This document shows, piece after piece, positions 41,429-50,595 of a DNA stretch of 64,000 bases. This DNA is from Gordonibacter urolithinfaciens (GTDB lineage Bacteria; Actinomycetota; Coriobacteriia; Coriobacteriales; Eggerthellaceae). The notes beneath the pieces were generated by a model. The model searched no databases, had not been told where the DNA came from, and saw only the letters and a program-made list of their open reading frames with translations. The translations under genes and the position numbers were made by a program. Position 1 is the first letter of the stretch, and each line of letters opens with the position of its first letter. The stretch is taken from assembly GCF_900199375.1 (NCBI RefSeq), contig NZ_LT900217.1, forward strand, positions 248,001-312,000. The letters run 5' to 3'.

Positions 41429-43299
41429 CGCATGCCTCCCTTCCCGCCCGCGGCGCCGTCCGCCTCGGGCACGTCCGTGCGCACGGCCCCCACGGCCACG
41501 TCGATGGCGCCTATCACGTCGTCGAGCGCGCGCCCGGGCGCCACCATGGGGAACACGTTCTGGTCGCGCGAGATGGCCACGTCCAGCAGGTAGGGGCCCT
41601 CGGCGGCCAGCATGGCGGCCAGCGCGGCGTCGAGCTCGTCGGGGCTCTCCACGCGCGCGGCCTGCCAGCCGTACGCGTCGGCCAGCTTCACGAAGTCGGG
41701 GTTGGCGTCGAGCAGCGTGGAGGAGTAGCGCTCGCCGTAGAACAGATGCTGCCACTGGTGCACCATCCCGAGGCACCGGTTGTCCATCACGAGCACCTTA
41801 ACCGGCACGCCGTGGATGCCCGCCGTGGCCATCTCCTGGCTGTTCATCTGGAACGACCCGTCGCCGGCCACGCACACCACCGTCTTGTCGGGGCACCCGA
41901 TGGCGGCCCCGATGGCGGCTGGGAAGCCGAAGCCCATCGTGCCCAAGCCGCCCGACGAGATGAACGAGCGCGGGCGCTCGCGCGCGATGTGCTGCGCGGC
42001 CCACATCTGGTGCTGCCCCACCTCGGTCACGACGATGCTCTTCTCGGGATCGAGCGCGTCGGAGAGCTTCTCCATGACCACCTCGGGCACGATCTCCTCG
42101 GGCGCGTCGCCCACGTTCGGATGGTAGAACGGGTGGCGACGGCGCCACTCGGCGATCTGCCCGAGCCACGCCTTCGTCTCGGGGCTCGCGCCCTCCTTGG
42201 AAAGCTGGGCCACGATGCCCCCGAGCACGCCCTTCAGGTCGCCCACGATGGGGATCTGCGCCTCGCGCACCTTGCCGATCTCGGCGGGGTCGATGTCGAT
42301 GTGGATGACCTCGGCGTGCGGCGCGAACTCGTCGAGCCGGCCCGTGACGCGGTCGGAGAAGCGCGCGCCCGCCGCGATGATGAGGTCGCTCTCCGTCATG
42401 GCCAGGTTCGCGTACTTCGAGCCGTGCATCCCCACGGGCCCCAGGTTCAGCGGGTGGGACGCGGGGAACGCGCCCTTGCCCATGAGCGTGGTGACCACCG
42501 GCACCTGCATGAGCTCGGCCAGCGCGCGCAGCTCCTCGGACGCGCCGGAGGACACCACGCCGCCGCCCACGTAGAGCACGGGCCGCTCGGCGCGGCGGAT
42601 GCGGGCCACCGCCTGCTTGACCTGCTTGGCGTTGCCGCGGTAGGTGGGCTTGTAGGAGGGCAGGTTCACCTCGTCGGGGTACGCGAACGCCAGCTCCTCG
42701 CTGGCGAGGTCGCTCGGCACGTCGATGAGCACGGGGCCGGGGCGGCCGGTCTTGGCGATGTGGAACGCCTCGCGGAACGTAGTCGTCAGCTCGTCGGTGG
42801 ATTGCAGCAGGTAGCTGTGCTTGACCACCGGCATGGTGATGCCCACGATGTCGGACTCCTGGAACGAGTCGGTGCCGATGACGCCGCGCGGCACCTGGCC
42901 TGTGATGACCACGAGCGGCACGCTGTCCATGTAGGCCGTCGCGATGCCGGTGACCGTGTTCGTGGCGCCCGGACCGCTCGTGACGATGGCCACGCCCACG
43001 TTGCCCGTGGCGCGCGCGTAGCCGTCGGCCTCGTGCACGGCTCCCTGCTCGTGGCGCGAGAGCACGTGCTTGATCTGCGTGGAGTCGTAGAGCGCGTCGT
43101 AGATCTTGATGGCCTGGCCGCCCGGATAGCCGAACACGAGGTCGACGCCCTCGGCCTCGAGCGAGGCGACGACCGCCTGCGCGCCCGTCATGGTGCGGCC
43201 TTGCTTCTCCGTGCGGCTGCCGAGACCGCGCGGCGCGCCCTTGACGGCCGCCGTCGCGCCGGGACGCGGCTGCTGCTGGTTCTGGTTCGCCTCGGTCAT
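41425..43299 (-). CDS. ilvB: Acetolactate synthase large (catalytic) subunit
   Basis: The 624-residue thiamine-diphosphate enzyme has the N-terminal [17 protein letters not shown] and catalytic glutamate in [16 protein letters not shown]. The ThDP-metal motif is [20 protein letters not shown] followed by [16 protein letters not shown]. About 35 hydrophilic residues precede the core, more than most family members. The start is the ATG at 43299 with AAGGGGG upstream, overlapping the ilvD stop as ATGA. It also ends with an overlap into ilvN, so ilvD, ilvB and ilvN are translationally linked. Confidence 0.95.
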
Positions 43300-44978
43300 G
43301 AAACATACGCCCCCTTGTCTGCGGAAGAGACGAGCTTCGCGTACTTCGCGAGCACGCCGTGGTCGTGCTTCGGCGCCGGCGGCGTCCAGGCCGCGCGGCG
43401 GCGTTCGAGCTCGGCATCGTCCACGCCCAGCGTGAGCGCGCCGCCCTCGATGTCCACCGTCACCTGGTCGCCCTCCTCGATGAGCGCGATGGGGCCGCCA
43501 GCTGCGGCCTCGGGGCTCACGTGCCCCACGGCAGGGCCCTTCGTCGCGCCCGAGAAGCGCCCGTCGGTGATGAGCGCCACGCTCGTGGACAGGCCCATCC
43601 CCACGATGGACGAGGTGGGCGTCAGCATCTCGCGCATGCCCGGGCCGCCCTTCGGCCCCTCGTAGCGGATGACCACCACATCGCCCGCCACGATCTTCCC
43701 GGCGTTGATGGCGGCGCAGGCCTCCTCCTCGCTGTCGAAGCAGCGCGCGGGGCCGGTATGCATCATCATCGAGGGATCGACGGCCGACTTCTTCACGATG
43801 GCGCCGTCGGGCGCGATGTTGCCGTGCAGCACCTTGAGCGCGCCCGACGGGCTGAACGGGTTGTCGTGCGTGCGGCATACCTCGCCGTCCGCGCCGGCGC
43901 AGGCCGCGTGCATGTAGTCGAGGTAGTCCCCCATCGGGCCCATGCAGGTGAGCGCGCTGCGGTCGATGAGCCCTAAGCGGTCGAGCTCCGTCATGACCAC
44001 GGGCACGCCTCCCACCTCGTACAGGTCGGTGAGCGGGCGCGGGCCCGAGGGCGCGAGCTTCACGAGGTGCGGCGTGCGCGCGCTCGCCGCGTCCCAGTCG
44101 TCCATCGTGATGGGATGGCCCGCCTCGCGGGCGACGGCCGTGAGGTGCAGCACCGTGTTGGTGGAGCCGCCGAAGGCCATGTCGCACTCCATGGCGTTGT
44201 GGATGGCGGCCTCGCTCACGATGTCGCGCGCGCAGATCCCCTGCTCCAAGAGCTCCATCACCTTCATGCCCGCGTGCTTCGCCAGGCGGATGCGCTCGGA
44301 GTACACCGCGGGGATGGTGCCGTTGCCGGGAAGCGCGATGCCGAGGGCCTCGGTGAGGCAGTTCATGGAGTTCGCCGTGAACATGCCGGAGCAGCTGCCG
44401 CAGGTGGGGCACGCCGTGTCCTCGTAGAACTTGAGCTCTTCTTCGGTCATCGTGCCGCTTCTCACGCGCGCCGCGCCGTCGAACAGCGTGTTGAGGTCGG
44501 TGGAGGGTCCGCATCCGCCCGGCTGCTTGCCGGCGAGCATCGGGCCGCCCGACACGAACACCGTGGGGATGTTCACGCGCAGCGCGCCCAGCAGCATGCC
44601 CGGCACGATCTTGTCGCAGTTCGGGATGCACACGAGCGCGTCGAAGGCGTGGCCCTGCACCGCGCACTCCAGCGAGTCGGCGATGGCCTCGCGCGACACG
44701 AGCGAGTAGTGCATGCCGTCGTGGTTCATGGCGATGCCGTCGCACACGCCGATGGTCGAGATCTCGAACGGCACGCCGCCGGCCAGGTAGATGCCGGCCT
44801 TCACGGCCTCGGCGATCTTGTCGAGGTTGTTGTGCCCCGGGATGATGTCGTTTCGGGAGTTGAAGACGGCGACGAGCGGCCGCTCCAGCTCCTCGTCGGT
44901 GATCCCGTCGGCCTTGAGCAGGCTGCGGTGCGGCGCGCGCGCCACGCCCTCGGTGACGGCCGAGCTTCTTCGTTTCAT
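43296..44978 (-). CDS. ilvD: Dihydroxy-acid dehydratase
   Basis: The 560-residue iron-sulfur dehydratase is the third step in valine and isoleucine synthesis. Cluster cysteines lie in [15 protein letters not shown] and in [19 protein letters not shown]. The C-terminal part has [20 protein letters not shown] and [30 protein letters not shown] lies just before the ATG at 44978; a longer frame upstream lacks support. It heads the ilvDBNC operon behind a leader of several hundred bases. Confidence 0.95.
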
Positions 44979-45496
44979 GCCGTTCCTTCCTCCTTCGTCC
45001 GTGCTGGCTGTCGACCTCGCTCGCCGGCAAGGGCAGGGCCCCTGCCCTGCGGTCAACCAGCCATAAAAAAATCCCGCTGCAGGCAAGTCGCTGCACCAGG
45101 ACCACGGTTAGGAGAAAGAATGCACCGCGGCCTTAAGCCGCACTGCACGCTTCGACGGGTAACGGTTGTCGCCGGTCCAGCCCTACTTGCCCCGCGCGCC
45201 GGGCCGGAGATCGTCCGTCCGCGCGCGAAACGTTCATGCCGAACTGCTCGGAGGGGGCTTTCGGACCGTCCACCGCCGGCTCGCAGCTTTCCGCCGGCTC
45301 TCTGGAAGATGGATTCGTCCCTACTGGTCCTCGTCATCGCATTTCGATCTATGAGGTTGTTGGACGCCAGTATACTCCCCGATCCGCCCTGCGCAAGAAA
45401 AACTTTGAATATCGAAGGTTTCCCGTAGGAAATTCACATGGACGAGGTCGGGAATGAGGGAGAAGCTGGCATTCATCTCCAAAACCGCACGCAGCC
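44979..45496 (-). promoter_or_regulatory. ilvD promoter and long 5' leader
   Basis: On the minus strand, TTGCGC (45396-45391), 16 bases and TATACT (45374-45369) form a good promoter, which gives a leader of about 385 nucleotides before ilvD. The leader contains a hairpin pairing GCGGC and GCCGC (about 45126-45140), then a T7 run at about 45070-45064 after a weak stem, then a second GC-rich stem (about 45025-45050). This may be an attenuator, but no short leader peptide rich in Ile, Leu or Val with its own stop is visible, nor a T-box motif in this direction. No gene is supported in these 518 bases. Confidence 0.5.
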
Positions 45497-45766
45497 CTAG
45501 CGAGCGGCGCGCTGATGTACGAGCGCCTCCACCCGCACAAGATCTTGCTCGGTGTAGAGCGTGTACACGAGATCAAAAGGGTTCACTGCCACTTTGCGAA
45601 CGCCTTCGCCGAACTCTTCCTTGATCGAAGCGGGAACCATCGAAGATCCAAATTCGCCGAAACGTTCGATGTTGTCCAGATTCTCAAGGATACGACTCTC
45701 CACTTTCGGGGAGGTTACCAAAGCAAGATCTTCGGCGAAGCGCTCCGCGTACTCCATTCTAGGCAT
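45497..45766 (-). CDS. RelE/ParE-superfamily toxin of a toxin-antitoxin pair
   Basis: The 89-residue basic-acidic protein, MPRMEYAERFAEDLALVTSP and ending VYTLYTEQDLVRVEALVHQR, has the RelE/ParE fold pattern with the C-terminal VRVEALVHQ strand. Members cleave mRNA on the ribosome or act on gyrase. The start at 45766 overlaps the antitoxin stop by 8 bases; an alternative ATG at 45757 is possible. It lies downstream of the antitoxin, as in Phd/YefM-type pairs. Confidence 0.82.
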   Translation of the reverse strand: MPRMEYAERFAEDLALVTSPKVESRILENLDNIERFGEFGSSMVPASIKEEFGEGVRKVAVNPFDLVYTLYTEQDLVRVEALVHQRAAR

Positions 45767-46049
45767 GCGAGGCCCGCTTGTCATGCACCGCAGCCATAAG
45801 GTCGTCGCGGGAAGAATAATAGCGTCCGTTCTCGAAATCATCGCGGGATTGCCGGAGGGCCTGCGCCATACGCTGCTCGTAAAGCGCCTGCTCAACAGCA
45901 TCGTCGATCTTTTTCTGGAATACGTTCTCCGACATGAAGGCATACTTTCCGCGGCCGTTCTCGGTGATGTAGACAACTTCGGTGTCTGCAATTTCTTTGA
46001 TCTCACGCTGCTGGTTTTTCAGCGCAGTAGAGGGGTAAATAGCCGGCAT
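45759..46049 (-). CDS. Phd/YefM-family antitoxin
   Basis: The 96-residue protein begins MPAIYPSTALKNQQREIKEI and continues VYITENGRGKYAFMSENVFQ, the usual DNA-binding N-terminal pattern of Phd/YefM antitoxins. A helical, charged C-terminal half would wrap the toxin. It precedes the toxin with an overlap. A 14-base-arm inverted repeat begins 14 bases upstream of the start and is the probable autoregulatory operator. Confidence 0.85.
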   Translation of the reverse strand: MPAIYPSTALKNQQREIKEIADTEVVYITENGRGKYAFMSENVFQKKIDDAVEQALYEQRMAQALRQSRDDFENGRYYSSRDDLMAAVHDKRASHA

Positions 46050-47411: not shown

Positions 47412-47770
47412 GCGCTCCTTCTCTCTCTTCGGTTCCCCGGCCGGCCGCGCTGCAAGTGGCGCGCTGCGGCACGCAGGCCGGTGGCGGTTGGTCATGGGTG
47501 CATTGTACTATGCGCGCGACGCGTTTGCGCAGGCGGCGCGGAAAAGATCAGCGGGCGGCGCCGGTGGCGGGGAAGCCGCGTAAGGAGCTGCACACGTGTC
47601 GGTTCGCTGACTGATCGGCCATGCGCGGGAAACGAATGCCCCGATCATAGGCGGTAGCACGTACGGACAGCCTAAACTCCCTCTTCGCACCCTTAGAAAC
47701 CACGGGCGCCGGACGCGGGCGAACCGCGCCGGCCCCGCAAGCTCGAGAACCTTTGGAAAGGAGGCGCGGC
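47412..47770. promoter_or_regulatory. Divergent region between serC and the C39-like gene
   Basis: In these 359 bases TACAAT on the minus strand near 47506 is a possible -10 for serC. Nothing else is convincing and there is no gene. Confidence 0.35.
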
Positions 47771-48673
47771 ATGCCGTACCGTGGACTGCCCTACTTCGTC
47801 GCCGAGCAAGCGAGCACCGGCGGCCGCGTCGACCCGTACGCGTCCGAGCGGCACACCTTGCCGGACTGCGCGCAGGGCGTGCGCTACTCGTCGGCGCCGC
47901 GCAGCAACGAGCGGCGCGTCGTGTCCTACCGCGCCTGCGAAACCGTATGCCCTCCGCAGGCCCACGGTGCGCGGGTCAATGCCAAGCCCCTGATCACCGA
48001 CGTCGAGCCCATGCGCATCCTGGCGGCGGTCATGCTCATGGCGGTTATCGCCGTGGGCGCGGCCTTCGTGGGCATCGGCGTCGCGAACGGCTTCACCGGC
48101 ATCGTCGACAATGCCATCCTGACCGACGAGCCTGCTGCCACGACGAAGGCCACGCTCAGCGCGGCGCCATCGTCGTGGCAGCAGGGAACCGTGCCCCAGC
48201 TGTACCAGGTGGATCCCCAATGGGCCGATCGCCCCTACGGCTCGGGCACCATCGGCACGTCCGGCGCTGCGCCGCTCGCCCTGGCCATGGTGCGCATCGA
48301 CCTCACGGGCGACGCCTCCGTGGGGCCGGTGGAGGTGGCCTCGACCGCGCAGCGCGACGGCTATGCCTACCAAGCCGACGCCACGGCGCTGCTCACCGAC
48401 GGCGCGGCCGGGCTCGGCCTGACGGCACGTCCCGTAGAGGCAAGCGAGCCAGCCGTCAGGCGACAGATCAACTCGGGCTTCCCGGTCGTCTGCGCCGTGC
48501 AGTCCAGCGCATTCGGCAACGGTACCGCCTACATCGTGCTGACGGACATCGACGAGCGCGGCCGCCTTGTCGTGAACGACCCCGCGAGCGTCGACCGCAC
48601 GGAGCGGCACTGGGACTTCGAAGAGATCCTGCCATCGAGCACCGGCCTCTGGGCCTACAGCGTGGCAGGCTAG
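47771..48673 (+). CDS. Membrane-anchored C39-like peptidase-fold protein lacking the catalytic Cys and His
   Basis: The 300-residue protein has a cytoplasmic stretch of about 80 residues, one membrane helix at about 81-105, and an external domain. That domain follows the C39-type papain-like pattern, with the opening motif QVDPQWADRPYGSGTIGTSG. In active relatives the next residue is the nucleophilic cysteine; here it is Ala166 (GAAPLALAMV). The motif that normally reads GHYIVL is GTAYIVL, so the histidine is replaced by Ala253, while the following NDP (Asn269-Asp270) is kept. It is therefore probably a binding or scaffold domain, not a protease. AAAGGAGG lies 9 bases before the ATG. It is a single gene with a strong terminator. 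Confidence 0.78.
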   Translation: MPYRGLPYFVAEQASTGGRVDPYASERHTLPDCAQGVRYSSAPRSNERRVVSYRACETVCPPQAHGARVNAKPLITDVEPMRILAAVMLMAVIAVGAAFVGIGVANGFTGIVDNAILTDEPAATTKATLSAAPSSWQQGTVPQLYQVDPQWADRPYGSGTIGTSGAAPLALAMVRIDLTGDASVGPVEVASTAQRDGYAYQADATALLTDGAAGLGLTARPVEASEPAVRRQINSGFPVVCAVQSSAFGNGTAYIVLTDIDERGRLVVNDPASVDRTERHWDFEEILPSSTGLWAYSVAG

Positions 48674-48782: not shown

Positions 48783-48992
48783 CTACGCTCCCGGAGCCGG
48801 CGGGGCGCTCGGCGGCTTCGGGGCCGCAGGCGGCGTGGGCGCGCCGGGAGCTGCCGGCATGGCGGGGACGCCGGGCGCCGGGGCGGCCTTCGCACCGCAG
48901 TTCGGGCACTCGTCGAGCTTCGGGTCGACTTCCGCACCGCATTTCGGGCACTTGACGGGGCCCATCCCGCTTACCGCTGGTCTGAAGCACAT
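48783..48992 (-). CDS. Small zinc-ribbon protein with Pro/Ala-rich tail
   Basis: The 69-residue protein has two CxxC pairs, VKCPKCGAEVDPKLDECPNC, forming a zinc ribbon at about residues 15-34. A low-complexity Ala/Pro/Gly tail of 34 residues follows. AAGGAG lies 8 bases before the ATG at 48992. It follows the NCS1 gene by 73 bases. Such fragments often mediate protein contacts; the function is not assignable. Confidence 0.65.
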   Translation of the reverse strand: MCFRPAVSGMGPVKCPKCGAEVDPKLDECPNCGAKAAPAPGVPAMPAAPGAPTPPAAPKPPSAPPAPGA

Positions 48993-49065
48993 GGCTCTGT
49001 CTCCTTCTTCTGGTCGGTTTCTCTGTCGGTTTCTCTTCTTGCTCACGGCCGTGCGGCCGGGAACC

Positions 49066-50595
49066 TCATTCGGCCGCCGCAGCGGCATCCTCGCCGCGGG
49101 GTGCGGCGCCGGCCGCCGCCGGCGCTCCCTCGGCCCGCTCCCCCGCCACCGCGCCGCGCGCGGACTCGCGGGCGCGCACGCGACCGCGGGCGAGCCAGCT
49201 CAAGGCCACGTACAGGGCCGCGGTCATGGGCGCCGTGGTCACGAACGGCACGGCCACCGCGCCAGTGGCGTACAGCACGCCGTTCACCGCGCTCACGACG
49301 GCGATAGTGGCCACGCCGCGCCAGTTCACGCTTTCCACCTGGTCGAGCGGCAGGCCGCGCGAGCCTATGCGCATCGGCCCGCGCACGAGGTAGTAGTCGG
49401 TGACGAGCAGCACGCACCACGAGATGGTGAGGATGCTGCCGAAGCTCATGAACGCGTTCACCTGGTCCAAGATGCCGCCCAGGATGAACAAAAGCCCAAT
49501 GGCGTTCGCCACCACGACGGCCGCGGGCCAGGAGAGCTTCACGCCGAACAGCGAGTCGAACAGGTTCGACACCGCGTTCGCGCCGCCGATGGAGTTCGAC
49601 GTCTCCACCTTCATCTGCGACAGGCAGATGATGGCGAGCCCCACCCCGCCGGCCGCCAACACGAGCGACACGCCCGGGTTCGTGATGGCGGCATGCGCCG
49701 CGCCCGCGGCATCGTAGCCCATGGTGGAGAAGTACGCCGCCGACTGCTCGAAGCCGAAGTACGTGATGAGCGCGCCGAACAAATACGTGACCACGGCGAA
49801 CAGGCTTCCCACCAGCGAGATGGGCACGAGGTCGCGCTCGCGGCGGGCGAAGCGCGTGAAGTCGGCGGCGAAGAGTGCGAGCAGCCCCGACGTCATGATG
49901 GCGTAGTTCACCCCGTAGGCGAATCCCTCGCCCACCTCCACGCCGGGGATGAGCACCCCGTGCGTGAGCGCGTCGCCCATCTGGCCGTTCGCGGCCACGA
50001 GGTACACCACGTAGCCCATGACGGCGAACAGCGCCACCACGAACACGGCGTTCATGCGCGCGATAGCCTTCGTGCCGAAGAGCGCCATGAGCACCCACAC
50101 GCACGAGATGCCTGCGAACAGCGCCCAGCGCATCCACTCCTCGCTCCAGCCGAACGCGAACAGGATGGCGTTGCCCAGCTGTACCGTCCCCACTGCCAGA
50201 ACACCTACCAGCAGGAATATCCACACGAGGGAGCCGGCGGCCGAGCCCTTCGTGCCGAAGATGTACAGGCGGCTGACCACGTTGTTGGGCAGGCCCTCGC
50301 GAAACGTGATCTTGCCCACCAGGTACGTGAGCACGAAGCTCAAGGCGAACGTGATGGCCATGGCCACCCCGCCCAGCTGGCAGCCCGCGTAGAACGCCAC
50401 GATGCCGCCGCCCATGAGCTTGGAGAGGCTGGACACCACGCCCGAGAGGATGGCCGCGATGTCGGGCCACGCGAGCCGCGCCGCGTCGGGCACGCGCTCG
50501 AACAGCGACGCCTTCCCCGCCGCATCCGGCGCCCGCCCCCGAGCCGGCGCCTTCACCTCGTTGGGCGCCTTCCCGGCAACCGGTGTTTCCTTCAT
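49066..50595 (-). CDS. NCS1-family nucleobase/hydantoin-type permease
   Basis: The 509-residue protein has about twelve membrane helices. The N-terminal region LSKLMGGGIVAFYAGCQLGG and the later GLLALFAADFTRFARRERDL fit the cytosine/purine/hydantoin (NCS1) family. Members import nucleobases or related heterocycles with a cation. The hydrophilic C-terminal tail of about 45 Ala/Glu-rich residues is longer than usual. It belongs to the row molybdoenzyme, ferredoxin, GntP, NCS1. The cargo could be the molybdoenzyme substrate; this is inference. Confidence 0.82.
   Translation of the reverse strand: MKETPVAGKAPNEVKAPARGRAPDAAGKASLFERVPDAARLAWPDIAAILSGVVSSLSKLMGGGIVAFYAGCQLGGVAMAITFALSFVLTYLVGKITFREGLPNNVVSRLYIFGTKGSAAGSLVWIFLLVGVLAVGTVQLGNAILFAFGWSEEWMRWALFAGISCVWVLMALFGTKAIARMNAVFVVALFAVMGYVVYLVAANGQMGDALTHGVLIPGVEVGEGFAYGVNYAIMTSGLLALFAADFTRFARRERDLVPISLVGSLFAVVTYLFGALITYFGFEQSAAYFSTMGYDAAGAAHAAITNPGVSLVLAAGGVGLAIICLSQMKVETSNSIGGANAVSNLFDSLFGVKLSWPAAVVVANAIGLLFILGGILDQVNAFMSFGSILTISWCVLLVTDYYLVRGPMRIGSRGLPLDQVESVNWRGVATIAVVSAVNGVLYATGAVAVPFVTTAPMTAALYVALSWLARGRVRARESARGAVAGERAEGAPAAAGAAPRGEDAAAAAE

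Follow-up and report, generated by a model that had tools for sequence, protein, structure and literature searches.

Gene neighbourhood and layout of the protein

The window, a 64,000-nucleotide stretch of the Gordonibacter urolithinfaciens genome, contains a gene for a 300-residue protein with a C39-type peptidase domain, in which alanine stands in place of both the catalytic Cys and the catalytic His (Table 1). Domains lacking both residues are hereafter called dead, and those retaining both are called active. A strong ribosome-binding site (GAAAGGAGGCGCGGC) lies ahead of the ATG, and comparable sites were found at all 16 starts compared, that of the window gene included. In Pfam, the protein matched Peptidase_C39_2 (PF13529) with 18.4 bits, which is under the gathering cut-off of 24 bits. 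No other Pfam family was matched at an E-value up to 1, and there was no fusion to an ABC transporter. When the 16 aligned orthologues were scanned with PF13529, 12 were matched at an E-value up to 1, the best value being 0.0021. Because the Pfam score is under the cut-off and the other 15 orthologues reach no better than 0.0021, routine annotation probably says hypothetical, and the clade described below would go unseen. NCBIfam gave two weak matches (E 0.12 and 0.26). In PHROGs, the window protein had a single match (E 0.088), and the active paralogue A described below had none.

Table 1 Features of the dead C39-type gene and its neighbours, in window positions.
Feature	Position	Strand	Basis or remark
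ilvD, divergent gene kept close to the dead gene	43296..44978	-	ORF-derived start (inferred); separated from the dead gene by serC and a small gene pair
T-box-like leader directly upstream of ilvD	45108..45346	-	RF00230
Small toxin-antitoxin-like pair between ilvD and serC	45497..46049	-	
Ribosome-binding-site stretch ahead of the ATG (AAAGGAGG)	47756..47770	+	sequence; orthologues with similar sites
Dead C39-type peptidase gene	47771..48673	+	ORF, 300 aa and stop; purifying selection
N-terminal tail, residues 1-80, predicted cytosolic and disordered	47771..48010	+	alignment, pLDDT, charge
Single predicted transmembrane segment, residues ~81-105	48011..48085	+	hydropathy maximum 2.63, windows starting at 83 and 84; helix 80-109
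C39/papain-like domain, residues 133-300	48167..48670	+	pLDDT, VIA-align
Gln146, oxyanion-hole position, kept	48206..48208	+	34/37 dead, 114/115 active domains
Ala166 in place of the catalytic Cys	48266..48268	+	alignment
Ala253 in place of the catalytic His	48527..48529	+	alignment
Asp270, triad Asp, kept	48578..48580	+	37/37 dead, 115/115 active domains
Small zinc-ribbon-like protein, proline-rich tail	48783..49088	-	convergent with the dead gene

The N-terminal tail showed an AlphaFold2 pLDDT of ~50 over residues 1-70. Its motifs MxYRGLP and DPYAxERR-LPNRTHGIRY are kept in the nearer orthologues, and distant dead members differ in this region. The tail is net positive (11 K/R versus 8 D/E across residues 1-82) and precedes a lone hydrophobic segment, which suggests that the tail is inside and the domain outside, that is, a type II topology. 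This arrangement supports the sequence-only reading, in which the protein had been described as exported and held in the membrane, to the extent that topology and export can be predicted from it. A tail motif shared with other parts of the same genome was rejected, since a search with residues 1-77 as the query recovered the tail itself only. The same search in genome G057 gave the orthologue and two other matches (E 0.07 and 0.5).

In 18 of the 21 dead loci of named records, ilvD was found upstream of the dead gene and on the other strand, at distances from <1 kb to ~7 kb. By comparison, ilvB/ilvD was present in 0 of the 40 loci containing active domains only, although several of the loci compared end near a contig edge, where absence is not always informative. 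Among the three dead loci without ilvD, L065 and L100 lie ~0.8 kb from a contig end, whereas Raoultibacter L056 represents a real difference: the dead gene is kept there with no ilvD within 10 kb. Between ilvD and the dead gene, serC was found in the window and in L045-L048. The toxin-antitoxin-like pair, one member of which gave a weak match to Phd/YefM and the other none, was also found in Gordonibacter sp. Marseille-P2775 (L046) and is missing from L045 and L048 (L047 is masked); the pair thus seems to come and go. The T-box-like leader matched RF00230 with an E-value of 1.7e-10 and 55.3 bits, short of the gathering score of 93, and the ilvD-ilvB operon may accordingly be tRNA-controlled. 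Rfam elements acting on the dead gene itself were rejected, since the window offered just this match, on the other strand, and three at E 0.39-0.57. An Rfam scan of seven related loci gave nothing at the gathering score. The zinc-ribbon-like protein had a match in L045 alone among the 22 loci searched.

Replacement of the catalytic Cys and His

Five matches to PF13529 were detected in the same genome: the dead protein, paralogue A (at ~72 kb), paralogue B (at ~79 kb), a further one scoring over the cut-off, and a weak one. Paralogues A and B both pass the Pfam cut-off and carry the motifs GCGPTC, TGHFIVL, and DPNS, and GCCPTS, NGHFFVV, and DPYS, respectively. The dead protein was 40% identical to A (residues 77-299) and 37% identical to B (residues 137-299). 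A MAFFT alignment with A and B placed Ala166 under the Cys (GCGP/GCCP), Ala253 under the His (GHF), and Asp270 under the Asp, bearing out the sequence-only reading that the Cys and the His had become these two alanines; both residues are kept in A and B. The three proteins have in common the fold, a YQ-D-W start, P168, G180, P186, Asp270-Pro, and a hydrophobic segment ahead of the domain, whereas the dead protein differs in its missing catalytic Cys and His, its relaxed His loop, and its Pfam score. We take the position of Asp270 to be that of the triad Asp of C39 peptidases. An Asn-Asp pair had also been read as kept; this holds for Asp270, which is present in all 152 domains of the census below, and fails for Asn269, which is unconserved in the aligned orthologues. 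Gln146 is retained as well, and a role of this Gln in the C39 oxyanion hole is described in passages of PMC8277102.

Another weak C39_2 relative, with a Cys-rich stretch, lies in the same genome at contig positions 229753-229911 (~230 kb; L005). A histidine kinase/response regulator pair lies next to active paralogue A in divergent orientation (L184:4074-7022); the kinase matches Pfam HisKA and HATPase_c, and we presume the pair to be VanS/VanR-like. In L185, two other ORFs separate A from a similar regulator located ~2.6 kb upstream.

Among the 138 Eggerthellaceae genomes searched, full-length matches to the dead protein were found in at least 17 genomes with at least 6 genus codes, the match in G003 covering residues 1-188 of a masked copy. 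Identity to the protein of G. pamelaeae 7-10-1-b was 97% over residues 1-186. In the alignment of 16 orthologues, from which the masked G. pamelaeae copy was left out, position 166 was Ala in 14, Ser in one, and Gly in one, and position 253 was never His. Dead members also came from Eggerthella, Enteroscipio, Rubneribacter, Raoultibacter, Paraeggerthella, and Adlercreutzia.

A census was made of 152 distinct domains that were within the E-value limit, long enough, and unmasked, drawn from loci among the matches listed; L009 and L047 (runs of N) and L001 and L005 (same genome, outside the E-value limit) were left out. Both Cys and His were present in 115 of the domains read, neither in 37, and only one of the two in none. 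Position 166 of the dead domains was occupied by Ala (27), Ser (4), Gly (4), or Gln (2), and position 253 by Ser (18), Thr (13), Ala (4), Cys (1), or Ile (1). The recurrence of the same double loss in 37 distinct domains is far beyond chance. Among the loci read, dead domains occurred in at least 38 Eggerthellaceae genomes with at least 12 genus codes. One of the 38 is G003, whose copy is masked after residue 187; its Cys position reads as Ala, and its His position is unreadable. An active C39_2 domain was also found in 36 of the 38 genomes, the remaining two being 56% and 79% complete. No dead domain was seen in the 40 loci with active domains only, other families included. An order-wide search of 395 genomes was evaluated at the level of matches, and dead members may exist outside Eggerthellaceae.

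In a maximum-likelihood tree constructed without the active-site columns, the 37 dead domains formed one side of one branch (SH-aLRT 92, 152 rows), with a warning of long branches that meet. The same branch was recovered in a tree thinned to 31 dead and 57 active rows (88 in all), which omits nine long active rows, active rows at least 80% alike, and dead rows at least 92% alike; its bootstrap/SH-aLRT values were 97/91, and 98% of 200 bootstrap trees concurred. The gene order near ilvD agrees with this result. If the root of these unrooted trees lies among the active members, the sequences are most simply explained by a single loss of both Cys and His, in an ancestor of several Eggerthellaceae genera.

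Fold and selective constraint

An AlphaFold2 model of the dead protein was built with 52 aligned sequences. The block pLDDT of the domain was at least 95 over residues 131-300, except for 79 at residues 241-250, which correspond to the loop ahead of the His position, and 87 at residues 271-280. In the papain-like fold, the catalytic Cys is located at a helix start and the His at a strand start; in the model, residue 166 opens the helix 166-179 and residue 253 opens the strand 253-260. The best fold match was the pseudomurein endoisopeptidase PeiR (PDB 8z4h and 8z4n), with a Foldseek E-value of ~1e-5 and a VIA-align Z of 17.2 over 141 residues at 2.2 Å. VIA-align Z values were 14.9 for the C39 domain of PCAT1, 14.7 for that of ComA, and 13.5 for 3erv (titled putative C39-like peptidase). 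The Foldseek TM-scores of the best matches were modest (0.36-0.37), as calculated over the whole 300-residue model including the tail. The domain of the dead protein is confidently modelled with a C39/papain-like fold.

The Nei-Gojobori dN/dS of the dead domain was 0.07, 0.11, 0.13, 0.19, and 0.31 in five pairs, and that of the whole gene was 0.17-0.32 in the same pairs. Against G. pamelaeae, the gene gave 0.12 (187 readable codons), and the domain of active paralogue A gave 0.16 and 0.15. These ratios indicate that the dead protein is under purifying selection and maintained.

Many scaffold columns were common to dead and active members. Active members are invariant, or almost so, at P245, G246, T249, G252, H253, T169, and Y175, positions that are relaxed in the dead clade. 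The sequence-only reading had described the frame around the His as intact, which was not upheld, since four of these residues (P245, G246, T249, and G252) form the preceding loop. Conversely, the dead clade is invariant at R230, F283, and P238, which vary among active members, although R and P are still the commonest residues there. The mean column entropy was 1.65 for dead versus 1.52 for active domains, the dead ones being slightly more variable overall. This column comparison suggests that, in the dead clade, the fold was preserved while constraint was lost around the His and gained at other positions. An altered interface would account for such changes no less well than a retained peptide groove.

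Could the protein still be an enzyme, through other residues moved into the site? Another Cys and His in the active site would speak against the pseudoenzyme reading; this was examined by clade-level alignment, and no conserved Cys or His column was found. The best conserved Cys and His columns reached 16/37 and 17/37, Cys is entirely absent from five of the 37 dead domains, and the His position is never His. The domain of the window protein contains only C241 and H280, which are present in 11/37 and 13/37 dead members. A relocated active site was rejected on this ground. Pointing the other way, the best hint of relocation came from L034 and L040, which have Gln at the nucleophile position with a Cys two residues earlier (GACGQ and GSCGQ), although their His position holds Ser or Thr; in addition, four of the 37 have Ser at position 166. 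The upstream Cys and the Ser at position 166 count against our best explanation, given below. On balance, the lack of any conserved Cys or His column among the dead domains makes relocated catalysis very unlikely. That the gene is a decaying pseudogene or its annotation an artefact would agree with the low Pfam score, but is hardly conceivable: the frames are open in the 16 aligned orthologues, the gene is kept across at least 12 genus codes, and decay was rejected on a dN/dS well under 1.

Possible role of the dead protein

With both Cys and His lost, the domain should be unable to cut. The orthologue-wide double replacement, the purifying selection, and the confidently modelled fold support the earlier proposal of a pseudoenzyme, with a presumed lack of activity; judged from these sequences, the dead protein is highly likely to be maintained and non-catalytic. 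Since this dead version is also retained by relatives among the gut bacteria, mostly in a similar gene neighbourhood, its role is very probably exerted by binding rather than cutting.

The best explanation overall is probably a membrane-tethered pseudopeptidase that binds and does not cut, likeliest as an adaptor of the active paralogues. The protein would be a type II membrane protein with an outward-facing domain that keeps the C39/papain-like fold, retained as a binding pseudopeptidase since the ancestral loss. As a membrane-bound adaptor or regulator, it might pair or compete with the active, exported C39_2 paralogues, and the cytosolic tail might provide a second contact. An adaptor is favoured because active paralogues occur in nearly all the same cells and are likewise built of a tail, a hydrophobic segment, and the domain, and because the newly fixed positions could form a new interface. 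Given how frequent active paralogues are throughout the family, co-occurrence weighs little here. The distance of the dead gene from the active ones (in this genome, B and A are ~217-223 kb away) counts against an adaptor, and the slightly greater variability of the dead domains as a whole counts against the best explanation. Taken on its own, a partnership with the active C39_2 paralogues is a tentative proposal.

The main rival is a receptor for peptides or wall peptides, in which the old substrate cleft would bind an uncut peptide and the protein would serve as a membrane sensor or chaperone. The fold, the oxyanion Gln, and the triad Asp are kept, and the mostly small residues at the Cys (Ala, Ser, or Gly) and His (Ser, Thr, or Ala) positions would leave the cleft open. 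The nearest solved fold, moreover, is that of a wall endoisopeptidase, PeiR. Precedents are given in parts of two sources, namely the non-cutting C39-like domain of HlyB (PMC8277102) and an inactive DUF1175 that binds peptidoglycan (PMC10318531). Against a receptor, the His loop, T169, and Y175 are relaxed in the dead clade, from which at least a changed specificity follows, and we consider this role possible but rather doubtful. A structural or anchoring role with a ligand-free cleft, such as a scaffold of a membrane complex perhaps co-expressed with ilvD-ilvB, would agree with the tail conserved in nearer orthologues, the positions whose fixation is confined to the dead clade, and the conserved position near ilvD. 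It appears unlikely, however, as the tail is different in distant dead members, no partner is known, the T-box-like leader ahead of ilvD reads the other way, and Raoultibacter L056 has the gene without ilvD nearby. A device for transmembrane signalling or control, common to much of the family, in which the external dead domain would sense wall peptides or the state of active C39_2 proteins and relay it to the cytosolic tail, draws on the one active C39_2 peptidase beside a two-component system of VanR/VanS-like appearance, and is a decidedly improbable role.

Several known systems resemble the binding pseudopeptidase proposed here. The C39-like domain of HlyB-type transporters binds cargo instead of cutting. 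As described in passages of PMC8277102, C39-like domains without the catalytic Cys are non-cutting in these transporters; they resemble the dead domain in their C39 fold and degenerate active site, but are N-terminal in an ABC transporter, and the HlyB domain keeps a His. The dead domain, by contrast, is free-standing on one transmembrane anchor, presumably outward-facing, and without either residue.

CspC/CspA of Clostridioides difficile and the pseudo-orthocaspases belong to other protease families. In the excerpts of the literature concerned, they are likewise proteases kept without catalytic residues, the Csp proteins for sensing, although in other pathways than the dead C39 protein. Inactive papain-like families are mentioned in part of PMC10318531, and general modes of pseudoenzymes are treated in part of PMC10211241. 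No account of the dead clade was found in the literature searched on C39 pseudoenzymes, pseudoproteases, and Eggerthella C39 proteins or pseudoenzymes. Degenerate C39-like domains as such were already known. The dead lineage, the active paralogues in the same cells, and the apparent single loss together make a bacterial pseudopeptidase role directly testable in gut bacteria.

PeiR cuts archaeal wall cross-links. It is named an endoisopeptidase and is 22% identical to the dead domain, and a C90A mutant of it was solved. C39_2 is described as a lytic domain in phage lysins against Gram-positive hosts in part of PMC8223927, and is listed among endolysin domains in part of PMC13284279. By analogy with these lysins and endolysins and with PeiR, a wall endoisopeptidase by name, a wall-related substrate of the active members is plausible. 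Relatives of the domain are also encoded in 11 phage records, mostly from human faeces (e.g., MT835850.1:11624-12103), ten of which were listed at 24-34% identity; these may encode lysins, or be bacterial sequence deposited under phage.
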